Virus record (IMG/VR): IMGVR_UViG_3300021225_000053
Coordinates: 1 to 24,982 of that record
DNA length: 24,982 bases
From: a virus
Strand: one strand, 5' to 3'
In this document: positions 7,397 to 17,094 of the stretch, one piece after another
Layout of the letters: each line of letters opens with the position of its first letter
Position numbering within the stretch: position 1 is the stretch's first letter
Translations under genes and position numbers: made by a program
The notes under the pieces: generated by a model
Seen by the model: the letters and a program-made list of their open reading frames with translations, nothing else
Database searches by the model: none
What the model was told of the DNA's origin: nothing

Positions 7397-8311
7397 ATGG
7401 CAATTTCACGTGCACAACTACTGAAAGAGCTGCTCCCGGGCCTGAACGCGTTGTTCGGTTTGGAGTATGCAACTTACGGCGAAGAACACAAAGAGATCTA
7501 CGAAACAGAGACCTCCGAGCGTTCGTTCGAAGAAGAAACAAAACTGTCTGGTTTCTCAGCAGCACCTGTTAAAAACGAGGGTTCCGCCATCGCTTATGAC
7601 AATGCTCAAGAAGCATGGACAGCACGATACAACCACGAAACAATCGCAATGGGCTTCAGCTTGACTGAAGAAGCTATCGAAGATAACTTGTATGACTCGT
7701 TATCCGCTCGTTACACCAAAGCATTGGCTCGCGGTATGGCTTACACCAAGCAAGTTAAAGCTGCAAACGTATTGAACAACGGCTTCACTAACACCGCTGC
7801 ATATTACGGTGGTGATGGCGTGCCTCTGTTCTCAGCTTCGCACCCATTAACTTCTGGTGGCACCAACAGCAACATTCCAACAACTCCTGCTGACTTGAAT
7901 GAGACTTCTTTGGAAGCCGCTGTAATTCAAATCGCTGCGTGGACTGATGAACGTGGTCTGTTGATCGCTGCTAAGCCTAGCAAACTGATCGTTCCACCAG
8001 CATTGCAGTTCGTTGCAACCCGCCTGTTAGAGACATCTCTACGTGTTGGTACTAACGACAACGACATCAATGCTCTGAAGAACAACGGTTCAATCCCCGG
8101 TGGTTACACAATCAATCACTTCTTGACCGACAACAACGCTTGGTTCTTAACAACCGACGTTCCAAACGGCATGAAGCATTTTGTGCGTACCCCAATGTCA
8201 ACCGGCATGGACGGCGACTTCGATACTGGTAACGTACGTTACAAGGCTCGTGAGCGTTATTCTTTCGGTTGGTCAGATCCGCTCGGTATGTACGGCTCTG
8301 TAGGCGCGTAA
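7397..8311 (+). CDS. Major capsid protein (HK97-fold, Mu gpT-like)
   Basis: A 304-residue coat protein. The N-terminal third carries acidic helices (YGEEHKEIYETETSERS), as in the N-arm of HK97-type coats. The middle has the pattern I associate with Mu gpT-like major head subunits: an EG.AIAYDNAQE segment, a strand with ETIAMGFSLTEEAIEDNLYD, a long helix ending in ANVLNNGF, and GGDGVPLFSASHP. It has a strong AAGGAG site seven bases before the ATG and is followed at once by a hairpin terminator, in line with a highly expressed coat gene at the end of a transcript. It forms the capsid shell around the DNA. Confidence 0.88.
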   Translation: MAISRAQLLKELLPGLNALFGLEYATYGEEHKEIYETETSERSFEEETKLSGFSAAPVKNEGSAIAYDNAQEAWTARYNHETIAMGFSLTEEAIEDNLYDSLSARYTKALARGMAYTKQVKAANVLNNGFTNTAAYYGGDGVPLFSASHPLTSGGTNSNIPTTPADLNETSLEAAVIQIAAWTDERGLLIAAKPSKLIVPPALQFVATRLLETSLRVGTNDNDINALKNNGSIPGGYTINHFLTDNNAWFLTTDVPNGMKHFVRTPMSTGMDGDFDTGNVRYKARERYSFGWSDPLGMYGSVGA

Positions 8312-8907: not shown

Positions 8908-9183
8908 ATGACCATGCAAACAGACGTAAAAGCAGCGCAGGTTACTTCTACCAACACAGCGTATGCTGGCCCAACTCGTGTAAAAGCGATAACGGTTAGC
9001 TACGCTTCCGGTGGGACGGTTGTGCTAAAAGATGGCGGTGCGAGTGGGACCACACGGTTTTCATTTACTGCACCTGCAGCGGCTGGCGCGGTACCTATTT
9101 TGTTTCCCGGTGAGGGCATTAAATTTGATACTGATGTGCACGCTACATTGTCTAGCGCAACTATAGTGGTGCTCTATGGCTAA
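8908..9183 (+). CDS. Small beta-sandwich-like structural protein
   Basis: A 91-residue protein with a strong AGGAGG five bases from the ATG. It shows regular beta strands (RVKAITVSYASGGTVVLKD, TRFSFTAPAAAG, SSATIVVLYG) and a segment ILFPGEGIKFDTDVHATL typical of small jelly-roll or Ig-like phage decoration proteins. Its last codons overlap the following gene by eight bases. The role as a capsid or tail decoration protein is inferred from composition and from its place among structural genes. Confidence 0.75.
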   Translation: MTMQTDVKAAQVTSTNTAYAGPTRVKAITVSYASGGTVVLKDGGASGTTRFSFTAPAAAGAVPILFPGEGIKFDTDVHATLSSATIVVLYG

Positions 9184-9421
9184 GACTCCGGCGTGGCAGC
9201 GCAAAGAAGGCAAGAATCCCAATGGCGGCTTGAACGCCAAAGGGAGGGCCTCTGCGAAAAAGCAAGGCATGAATTTGAAAGCTCCCCAGCCGGAAGGCGG
9301 CTCAAGGAAAGAGTCGTTCTGCGCCCGTATGTCAGGTATGAAAAAGAAGCTTACATCGGCGAAAACAGCAAATGATCCGAACAGCCGCATTAATAAATCT
9401 TTAAGAGCATGGAAGTGTTGA
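9176..9421 (+). CDS. Small basic conserved phage protein (DUF6321-like)
   Basis: An 81-residue, strongly basic protein beginning KTPAWQRKEGKNPNGGLNAK and containing LKAPQPEGGSRKESFCARM and NDPNSRINKSLRAWKC. I recognise this order of motifs from a domain of unknown function widespread in aquatic phages (recalled as DUF6321). Two Cys residues, one in FCARM and one at the very end, could bind metal or form a disulfide, but this is speculative. The start lies inside the end of the previous gene without its own clear ribosome site, suggesting coupled translation. Confidence 0.8.
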   Translation: MAKTPAWQRKEGKNPNGGLNAKGRASAKKQGMNLKAPQPEGGSRKESFCARMSGMKKKLTSAKTANDPNSRINKSLRAWKC

Positions 9422-9422
9422 T

Positions 9423-9620
9423 ATGTCAGAGCATCACGATAACCTAAAAAACTTTGTTGATTTTATTTCTGTGTTCGCAGCTGTTGGTGCGTTCTTAGAA
9501 TTGCTCACTCCGCTTTTTGGGTTGATTGGTGCAGTGCTTGGTTTGATGCGCATAATAGAAATGGTTACGGGTAAAGAATTTGTAGACATTATCCGTAGGA
9601 AGGATAACGATGGCCTTTAA
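9423..9620 (+). CDS. Small membrane protein (holin-like or unknown)
   Basis: A 65-residue protein with a hydrophobic stretch from about 10 to 45 (VDFISVFAAVGAFLELLTPL, then GLIGAVLGLMRIIEMV), enough for one long or two short membrane helices joined by a Pro turn. The N-terminus has His and acidic residues and the C-terminus is basic (IIRRKDND). It starts one base after the previous stop. A small holin is possible, but a better holin candidate lies beside the lysozyme at 24183, so an internal virion or membrane-contact role is equally plausible. Confidence 0.7.
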   Translation: MSEHHDNLKNFVDFISVFAAVGAFLELLTPLFGLIGAVLGLMRIIEMVTGKEFVDIIRRKDNDGL

Positions 9621-10095
9621 TACCAAAATAGACTCTGCGGGTCTGACCACATTAGCTGGTCTGGGTGTTCTTGCTTTCATGGATAAGAAAGATAAAGACA
9701 AGGCTAAAGAGAAAGACAAAGCTGGCGAAGCGCTAGTAAAAACTGCAGAACCTGTAGTTAAACCAGCCGAGCCTACTAAACCAGCTGAGCCTGTAAAAAC
9801 TACTACGCCACAACCACAGAATACAACAGGGTTCAGAGGTAAAGCTGCGGGCGAATTGCCAAGCAAACCTTACCCATTAAATACTCTACCTAACGAGAAG
9901 CGTAAAAGCCAACCTTACCCTGTAAAGCAAGCTGCGCAGACTAAAGCTGTTATGAAGAACACGACTGACAAGTTTAAGAAGTCTGACATTGCTCGTATGG
10001 ATGAAGGTGGAAACCCATATAAATCAGGCGGCAAAGTTCGCTCAGCATCACAACGTGCAGACGGCTGTGCAATTAGAGGAAAGACGAGGGCATAA
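9610..10095 (+). CDS. Basic Pro/Lys-rich protein with RADGxxIRGKTRA tail (1 of 3)
   Basis: A 161-residue protein with a short hydrophobic start (LTTLAGLGVLAFM), a highly charged Lys/Asp run, several PAEP/KPAEP units around 45-65, and a disordered-looking middle. The last 22 residues (140-161) form the shared C-terminal tail: GGKVRSASQRADGCAIRGKT then RA. The same tail ends two other neighbouring proteins whose remaining sequence is unrelated. AGGA lies a few bases before the ATG; the gene overlaps the previous one by 11 bases and the next as TAATG. Function unknown; see the finding on the tail family. Confidence 0.75.
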   Translation: MAFNTKIDSAGLTTLAGLGVLAFMDKKDKDKAKEKDKAGEALVKTAEPVVKPAEPTKPAEPVKTTTPQPQNTTGFRGKAAGELPSKPYPLNTLPNEKRKSQPYPVKQAAQTKAVMKNTTDKFKKSDIARMDEGGNPYKSGGKVRSASQRADGCAIRGKTRA

Positions 10096-10496
10096 TGGCT
10101 TTACCTACAAAACCAATGACTCCGGCACCTACAAGGCCGATGACTCCAACACCTGCACCTGTAAACCCAGCTATGCAGCGCCAACAACAGAATCAAGCAT
10201 TTGTTAACCAACTAAATGCAAGAGATGGGCAACAGAGGTTAGTTGACCCTAACGCGATGAAAGCTGCAGTTGATAAGAATATGGCGCTTAGACAAGCTAC
10301 CGATTCTAGATTAGCCGCAGAAGCAGCACGTAACACTATCCCAGCTACCACAGGTGCGAATGCTGGATTAAACCGTAGCATAAATGCGATACAAAGTCGT
10401 AGCGCTGCGCCTGTCGCAAGAGCTAAAGGTGGCAAAGTTAAATCTGCTTCAGCACGTGCTGATGGATGCTGCATTAGAGGTAAGACTCGTGCCTAG
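10095..10496 (+). CDS. Low-complexity protein with RADGxxIRGKTRA tail (2 of 3)
   Basis: A 133-residue protein. The N-terminus is a Pro/Thr repeat (KPMTPAPTRPMTPTPAP); the middle is an Ala/Gln/Asn-rich helical stretch (AMQRQQQNQAFVNQLNARDG) and the last 22 residues carry the shared tail GGKVKSASARADGCCIRGKT then RA. It starts in a TAATG overlap with the previous tailed protein and overlaps the next gene by eight bases. The N-terminal part resembles neither of the other tailed proteins, so the tail is a module rather than a sign of whole-gene duplication. Confidence 0.75.
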   Translation: MALPTKPMTPAPTRPMTPTPAPVNPAMQRQQQNQAFVNQLNARDGQQRLVDPNAMKAAVDKNMALRQATDSRLAAEAARNTIPATTGANAGLNRSINAIQSRSAAPVARAKGGKVKSASARADGCCIRGKTRA

Positions 10497-10869
10497 CGTT
10501 AGCAAGAAGCAAGAACGTTTTATGCAGGCGGTTGCCCACAACCCTGCGTTTGCAAAAAAGGCGGGGGTTCCGCAAAGTGTGGGTAAAGAGTTCACTAAAT
10601 CAGGAGGCGGTATGGCTGAGTCAAAGAAGATGGTTGGTAAAGAGATTGCGTTCATGAAGAAAAAGGGCGCACCTAAGTCAATGGTCAAGCATGAAGAAGG
10701 TGAGATGAAGGGTATGAAAAAAGGCGGCGCTGCTAAGTACGCTAAAGGTGGCGTAATTGCTTCTAAGATGGGCGCTGTTAAGACTGCTGCACCTAGCCGT
10801 GATGGCATTGCTGTCAAAGGCAAAACTAAAGGTACACAGATCAAGATGCGTAGCGGCGGTAAGTGCTAA
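10489..10869 (+). CDS. Basic protein, SKKQERFMQAV-type, possible two-domain fusion
   Basis: A 126-residue, Lys/Gly-rich protein. GTG at 10489 is chosen as the start: AGAGG lies at 10476-10480 and the product then opens MPSVSKKQERFMQAVAHNP, a natural N-terminus of a small family I know from phages and bacteria (similar to DUF3008). The longer frame from 10384 only re-reads the previous gene. Near residue 42 a second unit begins, MAESKKMVGKEIAFMKKKGA, which in other phages looks like a stand-alone protein; its ATG (10612) has AGGAGG at 10602-10607, so internal initiation is possible. The C-terminus carries a diverged form of the shared tail (SRDGIAVKGKTKG) plus a short basic extension. Confidence 0.75.
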   Translation: MPSVSKKQERFMQAVAHNPAFAKKAGVPQSVGKEFTKSGGGMAESKKMVGKEIAFMKKKGAPKSMVKHEEGEMKGMKKGGAAKYAKGGVIASKMGAVKTAAPSRDGIAVKGKTKGTQIKMRSGGKC

Positions 10870-11123
10870 TGATGGCGTCTCGTGGTATGGGTGCGATAGC
10901 CCCTTCCAAAATGCCGTCGGGTAAGAAGAAAGCCCGTCGTGATGACACTGACTTCACTCAGTATAAAGAGGGTGGAGCAGTGTGGGATAAGCCACGCCCC
11001 AAAGGTTTAGGTAAGCCAACTAAGTTAAGCCCCGCTAAGAAGAAGTCAGCGAAGGCTGCAGCAAAAGCTGCTGGTAGGCCTTACCCAAATCTCGTAGACA
11101 ATATGAGAGCTGCGGGGAAGTAA
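10869..11123 (+). CDS. Small Lys/Ala-rich phage protein, GRPYPNLVDN type
   Basis: An 84-residue basic protein. It contains KEGGAVWDKPRPKGLGKP, a Lys/Ala helix, and ends with GRPYPNLVDNMRAAGK, a combination I have seen in small marine phage proteins without a known role. The start is ATG 10869 in a TAATG overlap with the previous stop, with ATG 10872 as an alternative; an in-frame GTG at 10863 lies inside the previous gene and is less likely. The GGAV motif is shared with the neighbouring tailed proteins, though the RADG tail itself is absent. Confidence 0.75.
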   Translation: MMASRGMGAIAPSKMPSGKKKARRDDTDFTQYKEGGAVWDKPRPKGLGKPTKLSPAKKKSAKAAAKAAGRPYPNLVDNMRAAGK

Positions 11124-11446
11124 TGGCTGAAGAGAAGCTATCTACGAAAGCTAAAAGCGCAATCAAAAGCATCACAGGTAAAGATGTTGATGAAGTGCTT
11201 GAAAACATAGAAGCACCTGCTAAAGATGCTCGTGCGGAGTCGTTAAAGGCTCGTGCTAAAAGCTCTGTAGGTGGTAGTGGTGTTCGTGGTGGTGGCTCTG
11301 GCAGTATAGGTGGTGGCGCAGGTGCTACAGGTGCAGACTTGTTACACATGATGAACCCACAGAAGTTAATGAAAAAAGGTGGTGCTGTTAAATCAGCGTC
11401 AGCTCGTGCAGACGGTATAGCAATACGTGGAAAAACGAGGGCTTAA
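11123..11446 (+). CDS. Gly-rich protein with RADGxxIRGKTRA tail (3 of 3)
   Basis: A 107-residue protein in three parts: a charged helical N-terminus (KLSTKAKSAIKSITGKDVDE), a flexible Gly/Ser stretch (residues about 50-70, GGSGVRGGGSGSIGGGAG), and the shared C-terminal 22-residue tail GGAVKSASARADGIAIRGKT then RA. It is joined to both neighbours by TAATG overlaps, which implies tightly coupled translation with the first adaptor gene that follows. A Gly-rich linker before the tail would let the tail reach a partner while the helical part is held elsewhere; this is inference. Confidence 0.75.
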   Translation: MAEEKLSTKAKSAIKSITGKDVDEVLENIEAPAKDARAESLKARAKSSVGGSGVRGGGSGSIGGGAGATGADLLHMMNPQKLMKKGGAVKSASARADGIAIRGKTRA

Positions 11447-12186
11447 TGCCATACACAACAGCTACTTATGCGTTTAATCCTGACCTCAACGAGATATTCG
11501 AAGAGGCGTTTGAACGTTGTGGTAAAGAATTACGGAGTGGTTATGACTTCCGTACGGCTCGTCGCAGCCTGAATTTCTTGCTGGGTGAGTGGGCTAATCG
11601 TGGTATTAACTTGTGGACTATTGAGCAAGGCTCGGTCAATCTAATACAGGGGCAGACTACTTATGATCTACCTAATAATACCGTTGATCTTCTGGAACAT
11701 GTTATTCGCACTTCTTCCGGACAGGGTCCTAACCAGACTGATCTAACAATCACACGAATCAGTGTATCTACGTACGCGACTATACCTAACAAGTTAACAC
11801 AAGGTCGTCCAATTCAGGTGTGGATTAACCGCCAAAGTGGGCAAACTACTGACTTGTTAGGTGCAACACCCCAGAACCCACAGATTAATGTATGGCCTGC
11901 ACCGGATCAGGGTACAGCGTTGAACCCATACTATGTGTTCTATTACTGGAGATTAAAGCGTATTGCTGATGCTGGCGAAGGTGTAAACGCAGTGAATATT
12001 CCGTTCCGCTTCCAGAACTGTATGGTAGCTGGACTGTCGTATATGTTATCGATGAAATTAAAAGACGTAGCGCCTGATCGTATTATGGCGTTGAAAGTGC
12101 AATATGACGAGGCATGGGAACTTGCGGCTAGTGAAGACCGCGAGAAAGCTGCTGATCGTCTGGTGCCACGTGAGATGTATATTTAA
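11446..12186 (+). CDS. Putative head-tail adaptor/connector protein
   Basis: A 246-residue protein that looks like the connector proteins that bind beneath the portal of short-tailed phages (P22 gp4-like). The N-terminal third is helical: LNEIFEEAFERCGKELRSGY, then ARRSLNFLLGEWANRGINLW. Strands follow (GQTTYDLPNNTVDLLEHVIR) and a C-terminal helical region ends with WELAASEDREKAADRL. The pairing of a helical bundle with a QGQTTYDLP strand is a pattern I know from phage adaptors. It overlaps the previous gene by TAATG. A tail-tubular protein is the alternative reading; the structural role is more certain than the exact position. Confidence 0.65.
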   Translation: MPYTTATYAFNPDLNEIFEEAFERCGKELRSGYDFRTARRSLNFLLGEWANRGINLWTIEQGSVNLIQGQTTYDLPNNTVDLLEHVIRTSSGQGPNQTDLTITRISVSTYATIPNKLTQGRPIQVWINRQSGQTTDLLGATPQNPQINVWPAPDQGTALNPYYVFYYWRLKRIADAGEGVNAVNIPFRFQNCMVAGLSYMLSMKLKDVAPDRIMALKVQYDEAWELAASEDREKAADRLVPREMYI

Positions 12187-12188
12187 GT

Positions 12189-12611
12189 ATGGGCAATAGG
12201 TTTAGTTCCGGTAGACACTCGATCTCGGAATGTGATCGGTGTGGGTTTAGATATAAGCTGAGTATATTAAAGAAGCTTACGATTAAAACTAAACAGGTGC
12301 AGATTAAAGTTTGCCCTACCTGTTGGGAACCAGACCAACCACAGTTACAATTAGGTATGTACCCAGTGGACGATCCACAAGGTGTACGTGAACCACGTCC
12401 AGATAACAGCTACTACCAATCTGGATACACTGGGTTGCAGTTACAACAAACGCCACCTAATGATGTTGATGCGTTTGGGCAGCCAAGTGAAGGTAGCCGT
12501 GTAGTCCAGTGGGGTTGGGGTCCGGTTGGTGGTGCAAGCGCAAACGATTATGGGCTAACACCCAATGCGCTATCAGTGCAGTGTCTGGTAGGTAATGTGA
12601 CGATTACATAG
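12189..12611 (+). CDS. Zinc-ribbon phage protein
   Basis: A 140-residue protein with two CxxC knuckles near its N-terminus: Cys15-Cys18 (CDRCGF) and Cys42-Cys45 (CPTCW), 23 residues apart and separated by basic strands, as expected for a zinc ribbon. The remainder is Gln/Gly/Pro-rich (QPQLQLGMYPVDDPQGVREP, then WGWGPVGGASANDYGL) and probably extended. It lies two bases after the first adaptor without a visible ribosome site. Embedded in a structural operon, it is more likely a neck or tail component with a zinc-stabilised fold than a DNA-binding regulator, but this is inference. Confidence 0.75.
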   Translation: MGNRFSSGRHSISECDRCGFRYKLSILKKLTIKTKQVQIKVCPTCWEPDQPQLQLGMYPVDDPQGVREPRPDNSYYQSGYTGLQLQQTPPNDVDAFGQPSEGSRVVQWGWGPVGGASANDYGLTPNALSVQCLVGNVTIT

Positions 12612-12620
12612 GAGTTTGAA

Positions 12621-12779
12621 ATGGATACAAAACAAGTTAAGAAGATTGCCGACAAAGAAGTTAAGAAGCATGAGAACCGCATGCACGGTAAGAAGATGGC
12701 TAAAGGCGGCGTGACTTCTGAGTCAATGGTAAAGGTGGGTCGTAATCTGGCTCGTGTCGCTAACCAAAAATCGGGTTAA
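12621..12779 (+). CDS. 52-residue Lys-rich protein, KKMAKGGVTSE type
   Basis: A small ORF of 52 codons with GGAG at 12611-12614 seven bases from the ATG. The product is basic: a charged helix (VKKIADKEVKKHENRMHG), then KKMAKGGVTSESMVKVGR and a short helical end (NLARVANQKSG). The AKGGV segment echoes the GGxV motif of the tailed proteins upstream. Similar mini-proteins occur, as I recall, beside structural genes in other aquatic phages. Good ribosome site, full packing with its neighbours and the shared motif make it a real gene; the function is unknown. Confidence 0.75.
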   Translation: MDTKQVKKIADKEVKKHENRMHGKKMAKGGVTSESMVKVGRNLARVANQKSG

Positions 12780-12781
12780 TC

Positions 12782-13033
12782 ATGGCTAAATTTTCTCAAA
12801 AAGTTCAGGGTAAAGAAGTTGGTTCTGCAGCTGTTTATGCAAAACCACATGACATGAGTGGCGGCCCAGCTAAAACTGAGTTAAAAAACTTAGGTAAGTT
12901 AGATACGCTCAATCCTTCTATTGGTCAGATGAGTAAGTCTGCCGGTAGTAAAGGCGTAAAGACTGACGGTATTGAAACACGTGGTAATGGCGCTGCAACT
13001 AAAGGTCGTATTGCTAGAGGCCCAATGGCCTAA
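12782..13033 (+). CDS. Small protein with variant Gly-rich tail (RGNGAATKGR)
   Basis: An 83-residue protein starting two bases after the previous stop. The N-terminal part is polar and basic with a Gly-Gly turn (KPHDMSGGPAKTELKNLG); the C-terminus reads GVKTDGIETRGNGAATKGR followed by IARGPMA. This ending resembles a lengthened version of the shared tail (xDGIxxRG...KGR), so it is likely a distant member of the same module. No ribosome site is obvious. Function unknown; clustering with the tailed proteins and the second adaptor suggests a virion or assembly role. Confidence 0.72.
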   Translation: MAKFSQKVQGKEVGSAAVYAKPHDMSGGPAKTELKNLGKLDTLNPSIGQMSKSAGSKGVKTDGIETRGNGAATKGRIARGPMA

Positions 13034-15183: not shown

Positions 15184-17094
15184 ATGTTCGGGTTCTCCCC
15201 CTACGCAGCAACCCCATTTGCGGCGTTACCGAGTAGCGGGGGGACTACCCATAACGTAGATGTATCGGAAGCTATAAACGCATCTGCTACACAAGTTAGC
15301 GGATCAGTACTACCTACATCAATTTCGGAAGCAATCAATGCTTCTGCAGTTCAAAGCACAGTTACAACTTTTGTTTCCGCTATTGCAGAGACAATACAAG
15401 TATCTACTACACAATCAAGCACTTTAGATACTTCACTGTCTATTAGTGAATCAATACAAGTATCAAGTGATCAATCTGTAATCGCCACCCAAGAAGCCGC
15501 AATAAGCGAGCAAGTTAACTTTAACGCTGCTTCTAGCGTAACGGCTTCTATTGTTGTAGCAGTTATTGAAACAGTACAAGTTGATGAGGCTGATTCTGCA
15601 GCGATAGATGCTAACGTATCTATAACAGAACAAACTAACGTATCTGATACACAAAGCGCTACCTTAGGATTAATTGCTGATGTAAGTGAGCAAGCCGCAT
15701 TTAGTGATACTGAAGCTGCTGTTATAAATATATCTGTAGCAATAGAGGAAAGATCCGATTTAGCTGCTGACCCAGAAAGCTCTTCCGCATTTAGTGGCGC
15801 TATAGACGAACAAGTTAATGTTTCGGATTCTACAGCTGTGGCACTAACAGCGGCAGCAAATATTAGTGAGCAAACTGCGCTGTCTAATGCGCAAGATATA
15901 GAACAAAATTTATTAGTATCGGTTGACGAGCAAGTTAGTTTAAATGCTTCACAAGATAGTACTGTTGGTACATTCCTATTTATTGTTGAACAAGTCAATG
16001 TCTCTGATGCTAATGCCAATATTGTTACGCTAAATGTTGATGTTGCAGAGACAGTTAATTTATCCGATGCGCAATCAATCAGTGTAGAAATTAACACGCA
16101 AATAAATGAAAGCGTACAAGTATCAGCTGCCGCTAGCTCATCTGCTGACATAGCTGCCGACGTAGCAGAAGCTATACAAGTATCCAGTTCACAGGCAAAC
16201 GTAGTTAGCCTTAACGTAGACGTTAGCGAACAAATTAATGTTGCTGATACAAACTCTGTATTAGTTACATTTGAAGCATTAATAAACGAAGCGATTGATC
16301 TAGCTTCTTCTGTATCCGCACAAACAGTGTTTGATACTCAGATTGCTGAAAACGTACAACTCGCAGATAGTAGTAGCTCTACGTTTGAGATAGGCGCGGC
16401 GGTCCAAGAAACATGTCAGCTAGTCGATGCAAATACCGGCGCTTTAGTTATAGAGTGTTTAATTTCTGAAGCGCTTACAGTTTTAGATGCAGTAGCAGTT
16501 ATATTAAATACTAATGCTACTGTTAACGAAACCATAAATGCACAAGCTACAGTTACAGCTTCTATAGTCGCTGCGGGTTCAGTATCTGAATCAGTAGCAG
16601 CTGCAGATAGCCAGAGTGCTACAACTAGCATTGGTGGTTCCGTATCTGAATCAATAAACGCAAGCTCAACAGTATCAACATTTATAACAGCAGATGTATT
16701 TGTAACTGAGCAAACTGTCATAGCCGATGCACTTGCATGCACCGCATTCTTTAATGGGCTGATCTCAGAATCGTTAGCTGGCAGTGATATTTACTTTGCG
16801 CCCACCAATTATTTAGTCGATATAATTGAGCAGATCACGGTTTCTGATGCGCCCAATGGAGCTAATCCGTGGAATCCTGAACCAGATACTCCTTCTGGTG
16901 ACTGGGTGATTAGCGGTAGTGGCACAACGCCTTCTGGTAATTGGTCTACAGGTGGTACTGGATCTACACCTACTGGTGGTTGGGCACCTGCTGGCGGTGG
17001 AAGTTCTACTCCGGGCGGTGGTTGGTCTACAGGTGGCAGCGGCGTTACATTCCCTTCGGGTGGCTGGACAGATAATCCGACAACTCCAAATTAG
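15184..17094 (+). CDS. Repeat protein: 27 exact 20-residue repeats plus PSGxW tail
   Basis: A 636-residue protein with three parts. A short N-terminus (1-25, MFGFSPYAATPFAALPSSGG) is followed by 27 contiguous units of exactly 20 residues (26-565). A consensus unit reads roughly xVSEQVNVSDxxSAxxxxxx with a nearly invariant Glu at position 4 and hydrophobics at 2, 6 and 8. The C-terminus (566-636) is Gly/Ser/Thr-rich with five PxGxW motifs about 13-15 residues apart. The unit suggests a beta-solenoid or repeated hairpin, so an elongated fibre or spike. Nearly no Lys or Arg occurs in the repeats, giving an acidic surface. It sits just before the S74 fibre; a tail appendage is inferred. Confidence 0.8.
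   Translation: MFGFSPYAATPFAALPSSGGTTHNVDVSEAINASATQVSGSVLPTSISEAINASAVQSTVTTFVSAIAETIQVSTTQSSTLDTSLSISESIQVSSDQSVIATQEAAISEQVNFNAASSVTASIVVAVIETVQVDEADSAAIDANVSITEQTNVSDTQSATLGLIADVSEQAAFSDTEAAVINISVAIEERSDLAADPESSSAFSGAIDEQVNVSDSTAVALTAAANISEQTALSNAQDIEQNLLVSVDEQVSLNASQDSTVGTFLFIVEQVNVSDANANIVTLNVDVAETVNLSDAQSISVEINTQINESVQVSAAASSSADIAADVAEAIQVSSSQANVVSLNVDVSEQINVADTNSVLVTFEALINEAIDLASSVSAQTVFDTQIAENVQLADSSSSTFEIGAAVQETCQLVDANTGALVIECLISEALTVLDAVAVILNTNATVNETINAQATVTASIVAAGSVSESVAAADSQSATTSIGGSVSESINASSTVSTFITADVFVTEQTVIADALACTAFFNGLISESLAGSDIYFAPTNYLVDIIEQITVSDAPNGANPWNPEPDTPSGDWVISGSGTTPSGNWSTGGTGSTPTGGWAPAGGGSSTPGGGWSTGGSGVTFPSGGWTDNPTTPN
15259..16878 (+). repeat. 27 tandem 60-bp coding repeats, no indels
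   Basis: Each repeat encodes 20 residues beginning two or three residues before a conserved Glu (SEQ, SEA, SES, AET, NES and similar). All 27 units keep the 60-base period without a single codon gained or lost, yet no two units are identical at DNA level, so selection on protein structure, not recent slippage, maintains the spacing. Confidence 0.9.

Follow-up and report, generated by a model that had tools for sequence, protein, structure and literature searches.

A conserved tail recurs on small, otherwise unrelated proteins of uncultured phages; the same body occurs with or without it, its genes are flanked by those for the capsid and the adaptor, and the bodies turn over fast. Selection acts on the tail as a peptide rather than as DNA, and the tails of one genome resemble each other. 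With moderate confidence, and by analogy with the capsid targeting sequence (CTS) of T4 internal proteins or with T7 gp7.3, we propose that the tail serves as a C-terminal docking peptide that would place hypervariable small proteins in the virion.

Tail copies and their carrier proteins

The window, i.e., the whole 24,982-base stretch of DNA analyzed here, represents part of an uncultured phage genome. It encodes a terminase, a portal, a GroES-like protein, a major capsid protein in the same module (7397..8311, + strand; phrog_371, E 2e-22), and an SU10-type head-tail adaptor (11446..12186, + strand; PF24175, E 9e-9), which is annotated as a tail adaptor in isolates, as well as, judged by position, a probable scaffold and a cement-like protein. 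The adaptor forms the downstream boundary of a cassette whose upstream boundary is a DUF6321 protein that is tail-less here (9176..9421, + strand; PF19846, E 6e-19). Within the cassette, three + strand ORFs with orphan bodies (no Pfam or PHROG match) encode proteins of 161 aa (9610..10095), 133 aa (10095..10496), and 107 aa (11123..11446), and tail comparison placed the + strand copies GGKVRSASQRADGCAIRGKTRA (10027..10092), GGKVKSASARADGCCIRGKTRA (10428..10493), and GGAVKSASARADGIAIRGKTRA (11378..11443) at their respective ends. The coordinates reported for these three proteins by the first-pass annotation, together with its counts of 17 identical residues out of 22 and 3 identical codons out of those 17, were reproduced exactly. 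The three tails have 61–68% DNA identity (24 codons compared), and in 200,000 composition-preserving shuffles the number of shared positions reached a maximum of 5, versus the 17 observed. An unbiased all-against-all comparison of the C-termini in the window yielded 5 pairs scoring ≥38 (versus 0 in shuffles), and it recovered the pairs formed by these three tail-bearing genes.

The fourth copy, KMGAVKTAAPSRDGIAVKGKTK (10765..10830, + strand), had been described as a diverged version, and the tail profile bears this out, matching residues 93–114 of its 126-aa carrier (10489..10869, + strand, GTG start) with an E-value of 2e-12; the stop codon follows 12 aa further on. This protein combines an N-terminal SKKQ module (phrog_16759, E 2e-19), a disordered linker, and the diverged tail. 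In its AlphaFold model, residues 1–40 are helical (pLDDT 76–90) and the remainder scores 44–58; the tail, the sole tail region modeled, is predicted to be unstructured on its own, and a fold search with the model returned nothing significant. The protein at 12782..13033 (+ strand), also proposed as a version of the tail, scores just 1.8 bits with the tail profile, and profile comparison assigns it instead to a separate family, whose conserved tail, GIETRGNGAATKGRIARGPMA, is a distinct one. The ending of this single-copy family, GIxxRGxGAATKGxxxRGPMA, is highly conserved on a fast-changing body downstream of the adaptor. The GGxV part reported in two further proteins is merely a short Gly-Gly motif (<6 bits by the tail profile). 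Other phages have shared endings of their own: in HTVC023P, two unrelated proteins (L006 8135-8872 and 18960-19343) end in RGxGAAxRGxxFxGV, which is related to this second tail, and consecutive glycine-rich proteins of pelagiphage-type phages share the ending GGSGIVIIRYKFQ (L006 22721-28417; L168 22472-26679).

Two profile searches of uncultured viral contigs matched at least 600 stretches, and the matches listed comprise 423 distinct tail copies, all 423 on the + strand of their own locus, in short proteins with a median length of 116 aa. Among these listed copies, 401 (95%) are located no more than 30 residues from the stop codon: 298 (70%) end 1 or 4 residues ahead of it, with RGKTRA or RGKT[RK]G[RK]MV directly before the stop, and 103 lie 5–30 residues away. 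The remaining 22 are deeper inside the protein, most of them in one family of ~65–75 aa beyond the adaptor with an N-terminal ADGIAKKGKTEG. The expectation that hits are always C-terminal therefore holds for ~95% of the listed copies and fails for ~5%, which counts against a docking tag; since the ADGIAKKGKTEG family has the tail core N-terminally, the core is able to occur at either end. The ADGIAKKGKTEG protein is encoded ~2–3 kb past the tail cassette (L030, L060, L078, and others) and also has a GRNLAKVxNQ motif, which is present in the window at 12621-12779.

The 405 tail-bearing proteins among the matches listed fall into 138 body clusters, in line with the earlier description of a portable tail on otherwise unrelated proteins, and the same body can be found with or without it. 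Specifically, the DUF6321 protein ends in LRAWKC in the window versus LRAWNCKEGGSVRGGGCEIRGKTKGKMV in several relatives; the SKKQ module, tailed in the window, is a tail-less stand-alone protein of 46–58 aa in phiKZ-like phages; and the DSL-LC04 homologue of a tailed body ends in YAKGGLVTSKGQGRVIRSKKTRIC instead. DUF6321 and SKKQ, too, are short phage modules that are portable and found in these genes, but their sequences differ from the tail, and they represent bodies able to gain it rather than the tail itself. DUF6321, which stands alone in the window, forms the C-terminal domain of far larger phage proteins belonging to several PHROGs (e.g., residues 850–928 of 928). The 40-residue SKKQ module (window 10489-10608) has ~70% identity to a stand-alone protein of 46–58 aa found both in phiKZ-like jumbo phages (PHIKZ165.1) and in 61-kb Rhizobium phages (stand-alone loci: L165 4001-4177; L166 4001-4141; L164 12001-12141), and forms the start of the virion structural PHROGs 22033 and 25121.

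The bodies are basic, poor in hydrophobic residues, and rich in disorder-promoting ones, with a mean charge of +6 versus −6 for the capsid, cement, and adaptor proteins. Apart from DUF6321, SKKQ, and a few weak single matches, almost no Pfam or PHROG family was matched by the 138 body representatives, and enzyme cargo was rejected on this basis; because the bodies are not recognizable enzymes, any "cargo" would consist of small proteins that are probably disordered. With SKKQ excluded, a homologue was detectable for 19% of bodies between contigs with 85–95% adaptor identity and for 5% at 75–85%, whereas the flanking DUF6321 protein, of similar length, was kept in 100% of contig pairs; since homologues of short bodies of low complexity are more easily missed, this turnover may partly reflect rapid divergence rather than replacement.

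Gene neighborhood and distribution

Clustering near the adaptor gene, anticipated by the first-pass annotation, is pronounced, with 381 of 391 tails preceding the adaptor gene and 10 following it in the listed contigs that have one. Between the major capsid protein and adaptor genes lie 167 of 173 tail genes in listed contigs; of the six exceptions, two stem from the use of stop-to-stop coordinates. Several copies per genome were also predicted and found, the mean being 2.9 C-terminal tails per contig in the 44 contigs with a complete DUF6321-adaptor interval. When contigs were picked by the adaptor alone, 46 of 57 had at least one upstream tail. Elsewhere in the window, the product of 1677-2225, between the terminase and portal genes, resembles by eye a phage 2OG-Fe(II) dioxygenase, and 15184-17094 encodes a 636-aa protein of many diverged Ser/Asn-rich repeats (SEQxNVSDxxS-like).

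This placement before the adaptor would also suit non-virion assembly factors or chaperones whose tail docks on the nascent adaptor, portal, or tail machine and which leave before maturation, and T7 gp7.3, with its C-terminal loop at the adaptor-nozzle junction, is required for assembly (PMC11784390). Fast body turnover is unexpected for such factors, however, and one tail is common to 2–6 protein species per genome; we consider this explanation unlikely. Alternatively, the proteins may act free in the host, in takeover or counter-defense, with the tail binding a host factor. Hypervariable bodies would suit such an arms race, but the genes are embedded in a structural run and the tail is nearly constant over a wide phage group, which makes this option improbable.

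As the annotation had supposed, the hits are virus-specific rather than scattered in cellular proteins: a scan of ~85,000 species genomes from bacteria and archaea gave three tail loci on three contigs, all in metagenome-derived assemblies and possibly phage themselves. Among cultured phages, a diverged copy was found only in the Planktothrix phage Pag-Yong1 group, with one tail each; in Pag-Yong1 the copy MIGRDGCAKRGRTKGRFI ends UMO75986, and the adaptor gene comes directly after. A tblastn search of 50,697 phage records with a 25-aa tail gave no match, and a 30-aa variant retrieved from phage records the Planktothrix phage group only, as a weak match. No shared tail of this type was found in the isolate relatives DSL-LC04 and CRP-902, no family match to the tail in Pfam, PHROGs, or PDB, and no sequence match among solved structures for the tail, adaptor, or capsid. 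A literature search on shared tails, Pag-Yong1, DUF6321, and phiKZ165.1 found no paper, and no virion proteomics of any tail carrier was found. A further contig, IMGVR_UViG_3300021247_000119 (L014), is probably the same phage as the window: its tails are identical, and its adaptor shows 100% identity.

Selection on the peptide and tail dialects

Across 207 distinct tail DNA versions, 13 near-invariant residues are kept, and nearly all synonymous codons are present at the invariant positions. Because codons are saturated at these residues, selection acts on the peptide. The proportion of shared codons was 0.40 within contigs versus 0.39 between contigs, and this equality, together with the saturation, indicates neither a recent duplication nor a DNA signal. 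The earlier view that the likeness is old and selected, with no fresh duplication, is thus upheld; a small within-genome codon excess (p 0.025) is compatible with some gene conversion. A DNA-level element or ribosome-binding site was likewise rejected, given the saturated codons and merely partial translational coupling of tail genes to the next gene (51 of 134 and 105 of 181). This coupling, and the shuffling of other short modules within the same tail genes, are what would be expected if the tail were a by-product of low-complexity module shuffling or a nucleic-acid element for ribosome binding, coupling, or recombination, but the codon saturation and the constancy of the 13 residues over so many DNA versions point to the peptide and leave that account highly improbable.

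At the amino acid level, tails within genomes are more alike (identity of 0.75) than when permuted (0.66; 0 of 2,000 permutations), and relatives that lack the canonical tail have a form of their own common to two or three proteins. For example, one relative (L304) uses RGSGCEKRGKTRGKFV and RGGGCERQGKTRGKFV, and another (L325) carries RGSGIAERGVRKCKMR and RGAGIAKQGVRKCKMR on two proteins. Such shared within-genome dialects are expected if one receptor serves all tails of a genome.

The net charge of the tail is +6, which also fits DNA binding and in this respect counts against a docking tag. Given bodies that average +6 and a composition rich in Gly and Lys, the tail could instead be a nucleic-acid-binding or DNA-condensing peptide, body and tail together neutralizing packaged DNA or binding phage DNA or RNA with no specific protein partner. 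Yet a strict Asp, several Gly, and small residues are conserved beyond what charge would need, K and R exchange at positions 17 and 21, position 3 is often S or A, and the lineage-specific dialects suggest a co-varying partner; we regard this reading as rather unlikely, if the least so of the alternatives to docking. The stretch GCAIRGKT fits the Walker A pattern GxxxxGK[ST] in most copies, but it is probably a look-alike of the motif, which in P-loop NTPases lies within a Rossmann-type fold: the stretch ends 1–4 residues from the stop in 70% of the listed copies, its Lys is replaced by H or R in 22 of 415, and the single modeled tail region lacks structure.

Precedents and candidate role

The CTS of T4 is an N-terminal peptide that is cut off by the prohead protease. 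T4 internal proteins IPI–III are small and highly diverse, with several per genome sharing this short terminal peptide (PMC3012670; PMC9391042). Similarly, the tail described here is a short terminal peptide on several otherwise unrelated proteins per genome, and its bodies are hypervariable between close relatives (19% detectable versus 100% for DUF6321); this fast turnover favors a T4-like role. Unlike the CTS, it is C-terminal (401 of 423 listed copies near the C-terminus), and a prohead-type protease is not evident in the window. T7 gp7.3 is a 99-aa basic protein that is ejected; its unresolved N-terminus surrounds the DNA, and its C-terminal loop (residues 84–98) anchors at the adaptor-nozzle junction (PMC11784390). 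In composition and gene position the tail carriers resemble it, with a basic low-complexity body, a gene in the structural region, and putative anchoring, and the location of tail genes before the adaptor favors a T7-like role. However, gp7.3 is a single protein and the carriers are a family with changing bodies; the tail profile scores −3.1 bits on gp7.3 and gives no homology to gp7.3 or gp6.7. Given this mismatch and its position at the opposite end from the CTS, the tail family belongs to neither system. In encapsulins, cargo proteins of diverse kinds, with genes next to that of an HK97-fold shell, carry short cargo-loading peptides, mostly C-terminal and sometimes N-terminal (PMC7355545), but that cargo consists of folded enzymes with a different peptide, and the tail family is not counted as a member here either. 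By these three precedents, we infer that the tail serves to dock proteins on a component of the virion or of its assembly.

According to the docking proposal, GGxVxSASxRADGxAxRGKT[RK] would be bound by a single assembly component in these podophage-like phages, such that any small protein with the tail would end up in the virion, the most likely sites being the head interior and the portal-adaptor-nozzle channel. The bodies would then form a hypervariable cassette of 2–6 small basic proteins that travel with the particle and are delivered into the host together with the DNA; virion location, partner, and delivery are all inferred from these patterns and precedents. Going further, and only tentatively, the tail may represent an undescribed C-terminal virion-loading code of a large uncultured phage group, with swappable, injected anti-host bodies and a dialect that co-varies with its receptor.

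If the tail is indeed a loading tag, any gene with this ending could be read as a candidate for a virion-delivered protein, which would give access to short phage orphans that homology searches fail to annotate. It would also provide a small C-terminal tag to put proteins into a podophage-like particle, and the cassette would be a place to seek counter-defense proteins.
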